A program made the position numbers and the translations under genes. The notes beneath the pieces are model-generated. The model had not been told where the DNA came from and did no database searches. It saw only the letters and a program-made list of their open reading frames with translations. A stretch of DNA of 64,000 nucleotides from Aeromicrobium sp. Root495. GTDB taxonomy: Bacteria; Actinomycetota; Actinomycetes; Propionibacteriales; Nocardioidaceae. Below, one piece after another: positions 31,858 to 38,606 of this stretch; positions within the stretch are counted from its first letter, which is position 1, and each line of letters starts with the position of its first letter. The stretch spans positions 348,038 to 412,037 of the forward strand of contig NZ_LMFJ01000002.1 of assembly GCF_001426755.1 (NCBI RefSeq), written 5' to 3'.

Positions 31858-32481
31858 CTACTTGAACGAGAACGGCGGGTACTCGTCGGTCGCGAGGAAC
31901 ATGTAGGCGTTGAGGCGGTTGATCCACCGCGTGAAGCCCAGCAGGTACGACAGCAGACCGGCGGGCCACCGGCCCAGGATGATGACGGCGAACCAGCCGA
32001 TGAACAGCACGACGTAGAGCACCAGGATCAGCACGTAGAGCACGATGATGTGCGGGATCACGAGCAGACCGCGGAAGAAGATGCTGATCCGGCTGCGGTT
32101 CTCCAGCTGCGGCACGAAGTCGACGCGGACGTCGGGGTCCTTGCCGTTGTCGGCGAAGGTCAGGTCGAAGTCGAAGGGCGGGTAGCTCTCGCGCGTGAAG
32201 AACAGGAACGTCGAGACCCTAGTGGAGTAGCGCGTGTTGAGGGCCACGAACTGGACCACGAACTCCGGGACCTTGCCGGTGATGATGCCGGCGAACCAGC
32301 CCACCACGACGACGACGGTCGTGACGAGGTTGATGAAGTACAGGACGATGAAGTGCGGGATGGCGAGGAGCCAGTGCACGAGGGGGCGCCAGCGCGCGAC
32401 GCGCTCCGGCAGGTTGAACGTGGTGGTGACGGGATAGGCCGAGCCGGCGGACGGCGGCTGCAGCGGGTCATTCGATGACAT
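31858..32481 (-). CDS. DUF4389 domain-containing membrane protein
   Basis: 207 aa from ATG 32481, which has GGAGG upstream. Two similar halves each hold the pattern RPLVHWLLAIPHFIVLYF / RGLLVIPHIIVLYVLILVL, two membrane helices and an amphipathic turn ending in TRxSYPPFDF or TDEYPPFSF. The internal duplication and the YPPF motif identify the family. Function unknown. Divergent from the first EEP gene. Confidence 0.88.
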   Translation of the reverse strand: MSSNDPLQPPSAGSAYPVTTTFNLPERVARWRPLVHWLLAIPHFIVLYFINLVTTVVVVVGWFAGIITGKVPEFVVQFVALNTRYSTRVSTFLFFTRESYPPFDFDLTFADNGKDPDVRVDFVPQLENRSRISIFFRGLLVIPHIIVLYVLILVLYVVLFIGWFAVIILGRWPAGLLSYLLGFTRWINRLNAYMFLATDEYPPFSFK

Positions 32482-32604: not shown

Positions 32605-34143
32605 GTGAATGTCTCGGGAGTCACAGGTCGTCGTTCCATCTTCGCCGCGCTGCTCGCCGGCGTCCTGGTGACGGGGCTGCTCGCGGCCTCGCCCGCCGAG
32701 GCGGCCGAGTACGGCATCAAGACTGCGCCGTCGAGCTTCCAGGTGGCGAGCAAGTCGCCCACGCGGATGACGTTCAGCTGGAAGCGACCCATCTCCAAGG
32801 GTGTCCAGCGCGTCAAGTACACGGTCACGATCGCCGGCAACCGCGACATGAATCGCGACGCCAACTACGAGGTGAAGACGAGCTACGGCTACACCCGGAC
32901 CTCCACCCGGACGACGACCCGGGACAAGTCCCCCATCTTCGGCATCAACCAGCCGACGCTCTACGGCTACGGCGCCCGCATCTGGGTCAACGTCGTCACG
33001 AGCACTCTCGGCCCGAAGAAGTACCGCAAGGCCGACCCGCAGAAGGCCAGCAACCGCTACAGCGCGGGACTCCAGCCCGCCAACCCGAAGGACCCGGCGA
33101 GCGACCTCAAGGTCACGCCCACGTGCAAGGGCTTCACGGCTCGCTGGAACAGCATGCCCGCCGGCGCGCGAGGCATGAAGGTCGAGGTCACCGACCTCAA
33201 GACGCTCGCCAAGCAGTCCTTCGTGGGGTACGAGCCCGCCCGGTCGCTCGCCGTCTCCAGCCTGCCCTCGTCCACCACCTACTCCGTCCGGGCCCAGGCC
33301 ACGAGCGTCAAGCAGCGCAGCGGGTGGACCGCTGCCCAGACGATCACCACCACGACGTGCGCGTCCGACGTGGTGCGGGTCGGCAGCTACAACGCCCTGG
33401 TGTGGCGCGAGGGCAAGGCGGCAGCCTGGGGCACCCGGGCGCCGCTCGTGGCCGCCGGCATCACGTCGGCCAACCTGGACCTCGTCGGTCTGCAGGAGAC
33501 GTCGGCGAGCAGCGGACCCTCGGGTCCCCAGCTCGACACGCTCATGTCGAAGCTCGGCCGGTCCACGTGGCGGGTCGCCGACGACACCCTCGGCGGCGTG
33601 CACCTCATCTACAACAAGGACCGGCTCTCCACCGTCGGCGCCTCGCAGACCGACGACCGGCTGGACGGCGTCGCCGTCGCCCAGGCCTTCCGCGCCGGAC
33701 CCCGGGAGCCGGCCTTCGTCGCGGTCAGCCTTCACAGCACGGCCGGACTGAAGAGCCAGGTGGTCATGGCCAAGGGCCTGGCCGAGAGCGTGAAGACAGC
33801 GGAGAAGCTCCCCGCCGACACCCCGGTGGTCTTCGTGGGCGACGTGCTCCTGCGCGACAAGGAGGAGACGCGGACGGTGGTCCGCGCCGAGCTCAGCAAG
33901 ACCATGTCCGACGCGGAGTACTACAAGCCGGGACGGGCCCTCGACCTCTACAACTCGCGCAACGCGCTGATCCGGTGCCCGCGTCCCATCTCGGGCATCA
34001 AGGTCGACGGGATCTTCAGCAGCGACGCGGTCGCGGTCACCTCCTGGTCCATGCCCAAGTACGGGTTCTCGAGTGGCTGCTTCCGCGGGGTGTTCCCATC
34101 GGACCACAACCTCCTGACCGCGAACGTGTGGCTCGGGCGCTGA
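32605..34143 (+). CDS. Secreted EEP-family nuclease/phosphatase paralog 1 (Asn-less)
   Basis: 512 aa. Signal peptide cut near ASPAEAAEYG (about residue 33). Two fibronectin-III-like regions (about 40-150 and 165-250) precede an endonuclease/exonuclease/phosphatase domain (about 257-512). Visible active-site residues: Asn263 (GSYNALVW), Glu298 (GLQET), His in VSLHS, Asp413 in VGDVLL, and DHN in PSDHNLL near the end. The GDxN asparagine is replaced by Leu415, so activity may be changed or lost. Pairs of Cys (CPRP, GCFRG) suggest extracellular disulfides. First of three tandem paralogs. Confidence 0.87.
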   Translation: MNVSGVTGRRSIFAALLAGVLVTGLLAASPAEAAEYGIKTAPSSFQVASKSPTRMTFSWKRPISKGVQRVKYTVTIAGNRDMNRDANYEVKTSYGYTRTSTRTTTRDKSPIFGINQPTLYGYGARIWVNVVTSTLGPKKYRKADPQKASNRYSAGLQPANPKDPASDLKVTPTCKGFTARWNSMPAGARGMKVEVTDLKTLAKQSFVGYEPARSLAVSSLPSSTTYSVRAQATSVKQRSGWTAAQTITTTTCASDVVRVGSYNALVWREGKAAAWGTRAPLVAAGITSANLDLVGLQETSASSGPSGPQLDTLMSKLGRSTWRVADDTLGGVHLIYNKDRLSTVGASQTDDRLDGVAVAQAFRAGPREPAFVAVSLHSTAGLKSQVVMAKGLAESVKTAEKLPADTPVVFVGDVLLRDKEETRTVVRAELSKTMSDAEYYKPGRALDLYNSRNALIRCPRPISGIKVDGIFSSDAVAVTSWSMPKYGFSSGCFRGVFPSDHNLLTANVWLGR

Positions 34144-34198
34144 CTGCCTGAGCCCCTCAGCGGGTGCGGCGTCGATGTGAGCGACGTAACGTCGAAGG

Positions 34199-35764
34199 AT
34201 GACGCGCACTCGGGCGAGCCGTCTTGTCGGCTCCATCACCTCAGCACTGATCGCTGCCAGCCTGCTCGTGGCCACGCCCGCGCAGGCCGCGGAGTACGGA
34301 CTGAGCGAGCCGGCCACGGGCTTCCGGACCGACTTCTCCACGTCGTCGCGCATCCAGTTCTCCTGGGAGCGAGCGGTGTCGCGCGTCAAGCAGCGCGTCG
34401 ACTACCAGGTCTCGATCGCCGGGAACCGTGAGATGCGCAAGGACTCCAACTACCAGTACAAGCTCATCAAGGGCTACTCCAAGACGTCGACCCGCAGCTC
34501 GAGCCGTCAGTCGGCGATCTTCGCGATCAAGGTGCCGCGCCTCCATGCGATGGGCGCTCGGATCTGGGTCCGCGTGCGCGCGGTGACGCCGTCGGGCAAG
34601 TACCACCGCGAGGACCCGCAGAAGGCCAGCAACCGCTACAGCGACGGCCTCCTGCCCAGCACCCCGTCGGCCGCCGGTCTGCAGGTGACGCCGTCGTGCA
34701 AGGGCTTCGCCGCTCGCTGGAGCGGCACCCCGCCGACCAACTCTCGCGGTGTGGCCGTGGGGTACCGCGAGGTGCTGGCCACGGGCGCCCTGGGCACGGA
34801 GAAGTACTACACGGGCCTGGAGCCGTCGGAGTCGGCGACGCTGTCAGGGCTCAAGGAGAACACCACGTATGTCGTGCGGGCCAAGGCCACGGCTGTCCGC
34901 CAGCGCAGTGGCTGGACGTCGGGCGAGCAGCGGGTGCGCACCAGCAGCTGCAGCGATCCCTTGCGCATCGGCTCCTACAACTCCCTCGTGGACACCGCCA
35001 CGGGCGTGGCGTCCTGGACGTCCAAGCGCGCGGCGCAGTCTGCGGCGGTCATCCGCGACAACGTCGACCTCGTGGGCGTGCAGGAGACCCGTCGCGTGAG
35101 CGGTCAGCTCAGCACGCTCCTCGACAAGCTGGGCCGAAGCACGTGGTCCCTCGCCGACGGCTCCCTCGGGGGCGTCCACGTGCTGTATCGCAGCGACAAG
35201 GTCGAGAAGATCAGTGAGCCGCTCTACAACGCGGTCGACCGCTCGTACCTCTCCAGCTCGTACAACGCGATCGCCGTGGCGCAGGCCTTCCGCACGAAGG
35301 ACGGCAGCCGGGCGCCCTTCGTGCTCGTGAGCCTGCACGCCTCCACCAGCACGAGCGACGCCAACCAGGCGGCGCAGGCGGAGAAGGCCACGCTCCTGGC
35401 CAAGGTGCTGAAGGAGCGGCGCAACCTCGATGCCGCCACTCCGGTGGTGGTGGTGGGCGACGTCAGCCTGGCCACGGGCGACGACCGGCGGACGGCCGTG
35501 CGCCGAGCCCTGGGCGAGTACCTGGGCAACGCCGAGTTCTTCTACTCGGGCCGGTCCCTCGACCTCTACAACTCCCGCAACGCCCTCATCAGGTGCCCCC
35601 CGCGCGTCTCCGGGGTGAAGGTCGACGGGATCTTCGGGAGCGATCGGGCCGCGATGAGCGCCTGGTGGATGCCCAAGTACGGATTCTCGAGCGGCTGCTT
35701 CCAGCGGGGCTTCCCGTCGGACCACAACCTCATCGCCGGGAAGTTCTGGTTCCCGGGATCCTAG
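34199..35764 (+). CDS. Secreted EEP-family nuclease/phosphatase paralog 2 (Asn-less)
   Basis: 521 aa, the closest relative of the preceding gene: signal peptide ending TPAQAAEYG, shared EDPQKASNRYSDGLLP in the fibronectin-like region and KYGFSSGCFQRGFPSDHNL at the C-terminus. EEP residues Asn (GSYNSLVD), Glu (VGVQETR), His (VSLHAS), Asp421 (VVGDVSL) and DHN are kept; Ser423 replaces the GDxN asparagine. Only 55 bp after paralog 1, so a recent tandem duplication followed by divergence is likely. Secreted; substrate unknown. Confidence 0.87.
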   Translation: MTRTRASRLVGSITSALIAASLLVATPAQAAEYGLSEPATGFRTDFSTSSRIQFSWERAVSRVKQRVDYQVSIAGNREMRKDSNYQYKLIKGYSKTSTRSSSRQSAIFAIKVPRLHAMGARIWVRVRAVTPSGKYHREDPQKASNRYSDGLLPSTPSAAGLQVTPSCKGFAARWSGTPPTNSRGVAVGYREVLATGALGTEKYYTGLEPSESATLSGLKENTTYVVRAKATAVRQRSGWTSGEQRVRTSSCSDPLRIGSYNSLVDTATGVASWTSKRAAQSAAVIRDNVDLVGVQETRRVSGQLSTLLDKLGRSTWSLADGSLGGVHVLYRSDKVEKISEPLYNAVDRSYLSSSYNAIAVAQAFRTKDGSRAPFVLVSLHASTSTSDANQAAQAEKATLLAKVLKERRNLDAATPVVVVGDVSLATGDDRRTAVRRALGEYLGNAEFFYSGRSLDLYNSRNALIRCPPRVSGVKVDGIFGSDRAAMSAWWMPKYGFSSGCFQRGFPSDHNLIAGKFWFPGS

Positions 35765-35780
35765 GAAGACAATCCCGGGA
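35751..35780 (+). terminator. Hairpin overlapping the end of EEP paralog 2
   Basis: TCCCGGGAT (35751-35759) pairs with ATCCCGGGA (35772-35780), a perfect 9-bp stem with a 12-nt loop that contains the TAG stop. It probably ends the transcript before paralog 3, which has its own TTTGACC (35791 region) promoter-like sequence. Confidence 0.5.
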
Positions 35781-35885
35781 TTCGGGGGACCTTTGACCCG
35801 GGTGGGCGTACGCTGACGAGGCTGGGTCCACCCTCGGGAGGACGGGTCCCGGCCTGCATCGTCCTCCGTACCTTGAGAGTTCGCG

Positions 35886-37814
35886 ATGTCGCTCCGTACC
35901 CTGTTCCGCCGCACCGCCGTCCCGGTCGCGGCCGCCGTCATCCTCGGTGCGGTCGCCGCCGTCCCGGCCGAGGCGGCGGTCGGTACGGTCGCCAAGCCCA
36001 CCCTGTACCAGGCGACCGTGGCCTCACCGGGCATCAAGGTCAGCTGGAAGGCCGTCTCCAGGGCCACCTCGTACCAGGTGCAGTACTCGACCTCGAGCGC
36101 CTTCCGCGGAGCGGTCACCAAGTCCCCCGGCAAGGTCACGAGCTACGTCGTGAAGGGCCTGACGCCCAAGAAGAAGTACTACTTCCGGGTGCGGGCCAAG
36201 ACCACTGCCTCGGTCGGCCGCTGGTCCCTGGCCGTGGCCAAGACGCGTCAGACCAACAAGCTGCTGGGCACCCCGACGGGCTACGCCGTCGTCGGCGACG
36301 GCGCGGACCTGATCGTGAAGTGGGTTCGCCCCAAGTCGTCGAACACCGACACCCCGATCTCCTACCGCCTCGCGCTCGGTGACTACCGCCAGGTGGACGA
36401 CAAGATCCTGACCGATCCCGAGGACGGACGGACCCGGTACTACCGATCGGGCTCGCTCAGGACCTCGAGCGCGGCCCCCAAGCTCCGGGTGAAGGGCGCG
36501 CCCGCGCTCACGCTGAACGGCTTCGGTCGGGCGGTGTACGTGCAGATCCTCTCGCAGAACTCCGACGGCAGCTGGAAGAGCGACGGCGGCAAGGCCGCGA
36601 CCCGCACGGCGTTCGGCGTCGTGCCTGCAGAACCCGACACGACGGCCGGCATCACGGCGACGGCCGGTTGCACCAACGTGGTCGTCCGCTGGAACAAGGG
36701 CATCCCGGCGAACGCCACCGGCCTCGAGGCCCGCGTCTACGACGCCGTCGGCGCTCTCGTGACGACCGTCCGCGGGAACGCGGTGTCCGAGTCGGTCAAC
36801 GTCCCGGGGCTCAAGGCCGGCAGCTCCTACCTCGTCGAGGCCCGAGCCACCAACGCCGACAAGTCGAGCGTGGGCTGGTCGAACCGCGTGGCCGTCACCA
36901 CGGCGAGCGCGTGCGCCGCGGCGATCAAGGTCGGCACGTACAACATCGTGAAGAACGACATCGCAGGCGTGCCGAGCTGGAGCTCGCGCCGCGCCCGGGT
37001 GGCCCAGATGATCAAGGACAGCGGCGCCGCCGTGGTCGGCCTCCAGGAGACGCGGTTCGGCGACAAGTGTGACCCGGCGGACCAGCAGCTGAACCAGCTG
37101 CTCAGCTCGCTCGGCGGCACGTGGCGGTCGGAGAACAACGGCAGGAACGTCGACGGCTGCAACCGCGTGGGCAAGATCAATGCCTTCCGCGCCGGTGTCC
37201 ACCTCGTCTACGACACCACGAAGGTCGCGCCGGTCGACGGCCTCGTGGCCAAGGGCGTCAATCCCGACGGTCAGACCGACAAGGAGTACGCGGTCGGTCA
37301 GGTCTTCCAGACCCTGGACGCGGCCCCGACGAAGTTCGTCGCGGTGACGCTGCACACCGACTCCACCCTGGGCTCCTCCTACACGCAGGCGCAGAAGGAG
37401 GCGTACTGGAAGATGCAGGCGGGCAAGGCGCTCGGCCTGGCCGCGGAGCTTCGCTCCGACGCCGGTCTGCCGGCCACGGCCCCCACGCTGATGGTCGGGG
37501 ACTTCAACCTGCAGCGCTCGGAGTGGAACGACACCCCCGTCCGTGCCGGTCTCGGCGCCCAGCTCACCGACGCTCGCAGCTGGAACCCGGCGGTGCCGTT
37601 CACCCGGCTCAACTCCCAGAACGACTTCCAGCAGTGCGGCCACGCGGGAGAGGTCGGCGTCAACGTGGACGGCATCTTCTCCCAGGGCAGGGCCAGCGCC
37701 ACCGGCTGGAAGATGATGCTTCCCGGGGACGGCTCCTTCGCGCAGGGCTGCTACGACGAGGTGCCGCCGTCCGACCACAACATGCTCGTGGGGACGTTCG
37801 TCCTCGGGTCCTGA
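35886..37814 (+). CDS. Secreted EEP-family nuclease/phosphatase with fibronectin III repeats (paralog 3)
   Basis: 642 aa. Signal peptide ends near VPAEAAVG. A canonical fibronectin III domain (TSYQVQYSTSSAF, about residues 57-69; YYFRVRAKTT, about 99-108) and two further FN3-like regions lead into the EEP domain (about 350-642). Here the catalytic set is complete: Asn in VGTYNIV, Glu in GLQETRFG, His in TLHTDS, Asp539-Phe-Asn541 in VGDFNLQ, Asp in VDGIF and DHN in PSDHNML. It is the probable active ancestor-like member of the trio. Its stop abuts the convergent sirtuin stop directly. Confidence 0.88.
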   Translation: MSLRTLFRRTAVPVAAAVILGAVAAVPAEAAVGTVAKPTLYQATVASPGIKVSWKAVSRATSYQVQYSTSSAFRGAVTKSPGKVTSYVVKGLTPKKKYYFRVRAKTTASVGRWSLAVAKTRQTNKLLGTPTGYAVVGDGADLIVKWVRPKSSNTDTPISYRLALGDYRQVDDKILTDPEDGRTRYYRSGSLRTSSAAPKLRVKGAPALTLNGFGRAVYVQILSQNSDGSWKSDGGKAATRTAFGVVPAEPDTTAGITATAGCTNVVVRWNKGIPANATGLEARVYDAVGALVTTVRGNAVSESVNVPGLKAGSSYLVEARATNADKSSVGWSNRVAVTTASACAAAIKVGTYNIVKNDIAGVPSWSSRRARVAQMIKDSGAAVVGLQETRFGDKCDPADQQLNQLLSSLGGTWRSENNGRNVDGCNRVGKINAFRAGVHLVYDTTKVAPVDGLVAKGVNPDGQTDKEYAVGQVFQTLDAAPTKFVAVTLHTDSTLGSSYTQAQKEAYWKMQAGKALGLAAELRSDAGLPATAPTLMVGDFNLQRSEWNDTPVRAGLGAQLTDARSWNPAVPFTRLNSQNDFQQCGHAGEVGVNVDGIFSQGRASATGWKMMLPGDGSFAQGCYDEVPPSDHNMLVGTFVLGS

Positions 37815-38606
37815 TCAGGTTCCGACCAGGTCCGTCCACGCGGCGAGGGTCTCGGCGCACCCCGCGTCGAGCTTGACGGTCGCGAGGTCGTCGCCGCGGG
37901 TCGTGCCGCGGTTGACGATCACGACCGGGATGCGGAGGGCGTGCGCGCGACGCACGAACCGCAGACCGCTCATGACGTGGAGCGACGAGCCGAGCACCAG
38001 CAGCGCGCGGGCGGACTCGGTGAGGTCGAAGCAGTGCTGCACGAGTGGCTTGGGCACGCTCTCGCCGAAGAACACCACGTCGGGCTTGAGCCGTCCACCG
38101 CACGCCTCGCACGGAGCCACCACGAAGCCGGCGGTCTCGTCGAGCTCGGCGTCGCCGTCGGGGGCGAAGTCGGCCGCGTGCTCGGTCCAGCCGGGGTTCA
38201 GCGCGTCGAGTCGGGCCTGCACGTCGGCCCGACGGGTCCGCGCGTCGCAGTCGATGCAGCGCACCCGGTCGATCCGGCCGTGGAGGTCGATCACGTCCTG
38301 GTGGCCGGCCGACTCGTGCAGACCGTCGATGTTCTGGGTGATGAGTCCGTGGAGCCGACCCTCGCGCTGCATCGCCACGAGCGCGTGGTGGGTGGCGTTG
38401 GGCTCGGCCGTGCCCATCTTGCTCCAGCCCACGTGGGCCCGGGCCCAGTACCGCTGGTGGGCCTCCGGCGTCGCGATGAATTCCTGGTACGTCATGGGGC
38501 TGCGGGGCACCGAGCCCGGACCGCGGTAGTCGGGGATGCCCGAGTCGGTGGACACGCCGGCGCCCGTCAGCACCAGCACCCCCGTCTCGGGCAGGACGTC
38601 GTTCAC
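37815..38606 (-). CDS. Sir2 family NAD-dependent protein deacylase
   Basis: 263 aa. Removes acyl groups from lysines using NAD. NAD-binding GAGVSTDSGIPDYRG (about residues 16-30), TQNIDGLH (about 89-96), catalytic His in DLHGRI (about 108) and two zinc Cys pairs (CIDC about 117-120, CEAC about 166-169). The 45-residue span between Cys pairs is longer than in CobB. VLGSSLHVMSG supplies the ribose-binding loop. Lacks the Tyr/Arg pair of desuccinylases as far as can be seen, so probably a deacetylase. Confidence 0.92.
   Translation of the reverse strand: MNDVLPETGVLVLTGAGVSTDSGIPDYRGPGSVPRSPMTYQEFIATPEAHQRYWARAHVGWSKMGTAEPNATHHALVAMQREGRLHGLITQNIDGLHESAGHQDVIDLHGRIDRVRCIDCDARTRRADVQARLDALNPGWTEHAADFAPDGDAELDETAGFVVAPCEACGGRLKPDVVFFGESVPKPLVQHCFDLTESARALLVLGSSLHVMSGLRFVRRAHALRIPVVIVNRGTTRGDDLATVKLDAGCAETLAAWTDLVGT

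Follow-up and report, generated by a model that had tools for sequence, protein, structure and literature searches.

Loss of the GDxN asparagine in a branch of predicted secreted Fn3-EEP paralogs of Aeromicrobium sp. Root495

Three tandem genes encoding predicted secreted proteins with a C-terminal endonuclease/exonuclease/phosphatase (EEP) domain lie near the middle of a 64,000-nucleotide stretch of the Aeromicrobium sp. Root495 genome (contig NZ_LMFJ01000002.1, positions 348,038 to 412,037; referred to here as the window, whose numbering is used for the cluster). All three are intact open reading frames (ORFs) on the plus strand: P1 (32605..34143; GTG start, 512 aa), P2 (34199..35764; 521 aa), and P3 (35886..37814; 642 aa), with spacers of 55 bases between P1 and P2 and 121 bases between P2 and P3. 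A fourth paralog, P4, is located on the minus strand about 200 kb from the cluster (C2:180541-182058) and is 46% identical to P1. Each of the cluster proteins has what by eye is a Sec-type N-terminal signal—a basic start, a hydrophobic stretch, and an AxA-like site—and in P1-P4 an Fn3 module lies upstream of the EEP domain; Pfam fn3 scores exceed the 25-bit cut-off in P1 (26.6) and P3 (63.1) and fall under it in P2 (20.8) and P4 (23.2). Scores for Pfam Exo_endo_phos (PF03372) cluster around the curated cut-off of 24.5 bits (P1 24.1, P2 24.9, P3 24.4, P4 22.8). A preliminary description of this DNA as carrying three tandem secreted EEP paralogs is borne out; its suggestion of surface or extracellular action finds support as regards secretion, as far as signals judged by eye go, and none as regards the surface, no anchor having been noticed by eye in the cluster proteins, for which no tool-based anchor search was made.

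The Asn of the GDxN motif is regarded as indispensable in DNase I, APE1, Tdp2, and CCR4-like enzymes. At this position P1 has Leu415 (GDVL; codon CTC, 33847..33849, plus strand), P2 has Ser423 (GDVS; codon AGC, 35465..35467, plus strand, one transition from AAC), and P4 has Tyr (GDFY), whereas P3 retains Asn541 (GDFN; codon AAC, 37506..37508, plus strand). The remaining catalytic residues—N263, E298, H377, D413, D468, D500, and H501 in P1 numbering—are present in all of P1-P4 in the EEP alignment, so that both the replacement of Asn in P1 and P2 and the retention of the other catalytic residues, as first described, are confirmed. Two further residues, Cys458 and Cys492 (P1 numbering), are common to P1-P4 and rare in the other rows of the alignment. 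Lacking the Asn expected of a catalytically competent EEP enzyme of the DNase I/APE1 type, P1, P2, and P4 are, judged by their sequences, not classed as conventional EEP enzymes.

Conservation of the Asn was examined at two depths. A first EEP alignment comprised 40 rows, of which seven were set aside (one frameshifted, three partial, and three distant EEPs of other types from the same genome); all 30 of the remaining reference rows, P3 among them, have Asn at the GDxN position. Ten columns are invariant in these references, and P1, P2, and P4 all retain eight of them; the two broken columns hold the Asn itself and an Arg for which P2 alone has Lys. When the threshold is relaxed to 27 of 30 references, 14 of 17 columns are retained, the third exception being an Arg to Gln change that is also found in P3. 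An order-level search gave matches in 78 of 293 genomes, and 109 places were examined (29 loci from the search plus 80 fetched) of more than 150 listed. The order-level set together with the first set amounts to 163 rows, with Asn in 154, gaps in two, and other residues in seven: P1, P2, P4, L132 (GDFS), L173 (GDLS), L035, and one segment that does not align properly as an EEP domain.

L132 is an intact, secreted-looking protein of 362 residues in which all of the other catalytic residues are present; L173 is partial in the survey, and its full ORF carries the remaining motifs too. The GDFS and GDLS proteins, both from Propionibacteriales and with the other motifs kept, are at L210:8212-9300 and L211:806-2806. 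The Aeromicrobium metagenome-assembled genome (MAG) protein L035/L066 was rejected as an Asn loss, as its GDFN site lies between a single-base insertion and a single-base deletion when compared with L063. The credible losses in the survey are thus P1/P2/P4 plus L132 and L173. On the tree, L132 and L173 cluster together with Asn-bearing relatives and apart from P1/P2/P4, and the Asn has therefore been lost at least twice. Within the titles and opening abstract lines covered by a literature search, we found no description of natural EEP proteins without the GDxN Asn.

A search of the same genome for EEP proteins returned 11 matches at E 0.01, P4 among them. The genome also has, at C1:284.7-289.4 kb (L024:4664-9359), three more Fn3-EEP genes in tandem, all with GDFN, which offer a useful contrast within one genome; two of these genes adjoin with overlapping ends (L024 7596-7599). 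Neither P4 nor this GDFN-keeping trio featured in the preliminary description. In a maximum-likelihood EEP tree of 34 rows, P1-P4 form a single clade (support 100/100) in which P1, P2, and P4 group together (100/99) with P3 as their sister. Loss of the Asn is non-random with respect to this tree, as it marks the whole of the P1/P2/P4 clade. We interpret P1, P2, and P4 as a branch of secreted Fn3-EEP proteins that is probably specific to this lineage and the product of duplication.

The C-termini of P1 and P2 had been described as near-identical, which is an overstatement: over the last 80 aa they match at 49 of 81 positions (60%), compared with 45-47% identity outside this segment and with 30 of 81 between P1 and P3. 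The last 80 aa are 60-63% identical among P1, P2, and P4; relative to P1, the other three proteins are 33-47% identical in the N-terminal part of the EEP domain and 35-63% in the last 80 aa. Gene conversion at the C-terminal ends is ruled out, because identity at fourfold third bases is close to the expectation from composition, at 12 of 22 for P1-P2 over the last 80 aa (expected 9.0), 10 of 20 for P1-P4 (expected 6.9), and 9 of 20 for P2-P4 (expected 6.7). High protein identity with fourfold sites near chance implies protein-level selection instead. The P1/P2/P4 tree has a length of 1.77 changes per site, and the chance that seven catalytic sites stay unchanged is about 9e-5 with gamma-distributed rates and 4e-6 without, both values being rough and using a mean EEP rate drawn from the same alignment. 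The pattern of substitution indicates that selection, and not decay or gene conversion, is what maintains the rest of the active site in P1, P2, and P4.

The EEP fold was modelled for P1 only, using four sequences (mean predicted local distance difference test, pLDDT, 65; predicted template modelling score, pTM, 0.73); a full-length P1 model (mean pLDDT 55) was set aside as poor. Against solved structures the EEP model gives Z scores of 20.5 for 3g6s, 20.1 for 3mpr, 19.6 for 4c1r, about 18.9 for Tdp2, and about 16 for DNase I, and the P1 domain is predicted, with clear structural matching, to have the EEP four-layer fold. The loops around residues 183-217 and 235-250 in the numbering of the model have pLDDT below 50 and no geometry is claimed for the Asn site, so that structure prediction, proposed earlier as a check on the active site, supports the fold and not the arrangement of the site. 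A residue specific to P1/P2/P4 that might stand in for Asn was sought among R452, K466, K485, R423, and D447, all conserved in these three proteins; most are in loops with pLDDT below 50 and no claim is made for any of them.

We tentatively propose, at a probability of roughly 0.42, that P1, P2, and P4 retain, outside the cell, a metal-dependent phosphoester chemistry that is altered or strongly reduced. The branch would have given up the Asn that holds the attacking water, with selection keeping the metal site (Asn263 and Glu298), the general base Asp413, His377, Asp468, and Asp500-His501 (P1 numbering). The three proteins may then still bind a divalent metal and an extracellular phosphate ester, hydrolysing it with altered specificity or rate; candidate substrates are extracellular nucleic acid, a sugar phosphate, or another phosphodiester. 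P3, with its full site, would be the member of the cluster that works as a conventional active enzyme. In favour count the constancy of the other seven catalytic positions across P1, P2, and P4, the protein-level selection described above, the match of the P1 EEP model to solved EEP enzymes, and the fact that L132 and L173 have likewise lost the Asn with all else kept. Because the general base has been kept along with both His-Asp pairs, we favour chemistry over binding alone. A bolder extension—that EEP enzymes have evolved an Asn-free way of working at least twice, the Leu, Ser, and Tyr paralogs hydrolysing a phosphate ester through a rearranged mechanism or a contact supplied by the substrate—we consider unlikely.

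Several points weigh against retained chemistry. An excerpt of one APE1 study (PMC13192912) has Asn212, with Asp210, positioning the attacking water and attributes an activity loss of about 7000-fold to mutation of Asn212, and a passage of another (PMC3852660) cites losses of 10^4-10^5-fold on removal of the Asp210 and Asn212 side chains; altered catalysis may therefore mean almost none, and if such losses hold here P1, P2, and P4 should hydrolyse poorly. The replacements Leu, Ser, and Tyr are also chemically dissimilar, so that no single new catalytic residue has been installed, and no substitute for the role of Asn specific to the three proteins was identified, the active-site loops of the model being those of low confidence noted above.

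The same APE1 losses, as far as these excerpts go, lend weight to a different account, in which P1, P2, and P4 are dead pseudoenzymes whose retained metal-phosphate site binds nucleic acid or some other polyanion outside the cell, each in the role of a decoy, a matrix protein, or a partner for P3. Their EEP domains are more basic than that of P3 (isoelectric point 9.2-9.7 versus 6.1), and the basic residues R452, K466, and K485, conserved in all three, correspond to Q, N, and L in P3. Basicity is not distinctive, however, since charge across 36 other EEP rows ranges from −17 to +29 (median 3.5), and a binder would have no need of Asp413 as general base or of the Asp468-His501 pair, all of which have been kept. 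We judge this account possible but rather unlikely.

The independent losses in two lineages with all else kept, and the three different replacements, which suggest an unconstrained position, could also mean that the Asn is dispensable for the substrate of this subfamily and that P1-P4 are all ordinary enzymes of similar activity; the presence of Asn in 30 of 30 references and 154 of 163 survey rows nevertheless points to constraint in the wider subfamily, P3 included, and makes this improbable. That P1, P2, and P4 are decaying duplicates, the missing Asn being a first sign of their becoming pseudogenes, would suit a lineage-restricted family without detected orthologs, but is very improbable given that the ORFs are intact, that P1 and P2 have a G+C content at third codon positions (GC3) of about 0.94, and that three paralogs share seven catalytic residues and 60-63% C-terminal identity with fourfold sites near chance.

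The paralogs have a narrow distribution: searches of the genus and family sets brought up no ortholog. In the genus set P1 has a match at E 0.001 in 11 of 49 genomes, none above 65 bits outside its own genome. In the family set three of 341 genomes pass 1e-15 with P1—its own and two with matches at 31-32% identity—and P3 passes 1e-20 in one of 341, its own genome only. A four-row profile matched at 1e-12 in seven of 394 genomes drawn from the class, its own genome counted. Peptide or DNA patterns from the P1/P2/P4 alignment, run against genome_contigs and viral_contigs, gave no ortholog, and EEP alignment A3 found nothing in viral_contigs. The custom pattern VDGIF..W..SDHN occurs in six stretches of genome_contigs, and an ORF bearing DGIF was recovered from two of these, each in an Aeromicrobium MAG and of another subfamily, and from none of the remaining four; this pattern and a looser EEP pattern each gave zero matches in viral_contigs. 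Plasmid searches gave no match for P1 or P3, and a phage search, run with P1 only, gave none.

The cluster is bounded by two genes on the minus strand, encoding a DUF4389 protein on the left (31858..32481) and a SIR2 family protein on the right (37815..38606), both of which are conserved neighbours of the site. The SIR2 gene is present in 44 of 49 genus genomes, and SIR2 loci were read in 29 relatives. DUF4389 directly follows SIR2 on the same strand, 101-212 bp away, in 12 of the 29, is 1,294 bp away in one, and was not seen within 1.5 kb in 16. The 5.2 kb cluster therefore occupies a site unoccupied in many relatives, and by this comparison of gene order looks like a lineage-specific insertion. 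As these counts show, the region after SIR2 differs among relatives, and gene turnover at the site may be frequent. No direct or inverted repeat links one edge of the cluster with the other; those detected reflect paralogy or short chance matches. No tRNA was found within the window or near P4. No sigma-70 promoter-like site was found, in what is a weak test for a GC-rich genome.

P4 has a GC3 of 0.73, compared with about 0.94 for P1 and P2, and sits in a low-GC stretch (0.60-0.67, versus 0.70-0.74 outside) that extends from about C2:169,000 to beyond C2:206,000, its right end not having been reached. Also encoded in this stretch are a DNA methyltransferase, an SMC/Rad50-like ATPase, a DUF6791-ThiF protein, an RHS-repeat protein, a STAND-like ATPase with tetratricopeptide repeats, and a protein kinase. 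Neighbours of P4 (the methyltransferase, AAA/SMC-like, and ThiF proteins) match defence-related PADLOC models; P1, P3, and P4, the paralogs scanned, have no match to PADLOC anti-phage defence models at E 0.01. P4 probably came on, or travels with, an island, and the low-GC region may be concerned with defence or be mobile. A PETase-like hydrolase (PF12740, 367 bits; L098:8134-9243) is encoded just beyond the left edge of the low-GC stretch.

What emerges is a branch of an EEP subfamily that, by alignment, is missing one catalytic residue, together with a second, independent example in L132/L173. Natural paralogs that have lost only the Asn, more than once, with the rest under selection, make a ready set for probing the role of this residue, with P3 and its intact site as a control from the same gene cluster. 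P1, P2, and P4 also bear on whether secreted proteins of nuclease fold can act as binding or matrix proteins.

Among known proteins, the Bacteroides EEP enzymes 3g6s (BVU_0621) and 4c1r (the mannosyl-6-phosphatase BT3783) are among the top structural matches of the P1 EEP model and match the EEP alignment as profiles (E 2.9e-20 and 3.2e-13); 3g6s differs from P1 in having GDFN in the profile alignment, and at about 16-23% identity a substrate is not transferable from either. The actinomycete secreted Fn3-EEP proteins (PF00041 plus PF03372), exemplified by the C1:284.7-289.4 kb trio, share with the proteins described here a signal (by eye), Fn3, a C-terminal EEP domain, and tandem arrangement, as well as an NSxN-type loop and a PSDHN end, but that trio keeps GDFN and P1, P2, and P4 do not. 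The branch containing DNase I, APE1, Tdp2, CCR4, and nocturnin has the same fold and the catalytic set Asn, Glu, His, Asp, Asp, and Asp-His; it differs in the GDxN Asn, which positions the water in APE1 and is absent from P1, P2, and P4.

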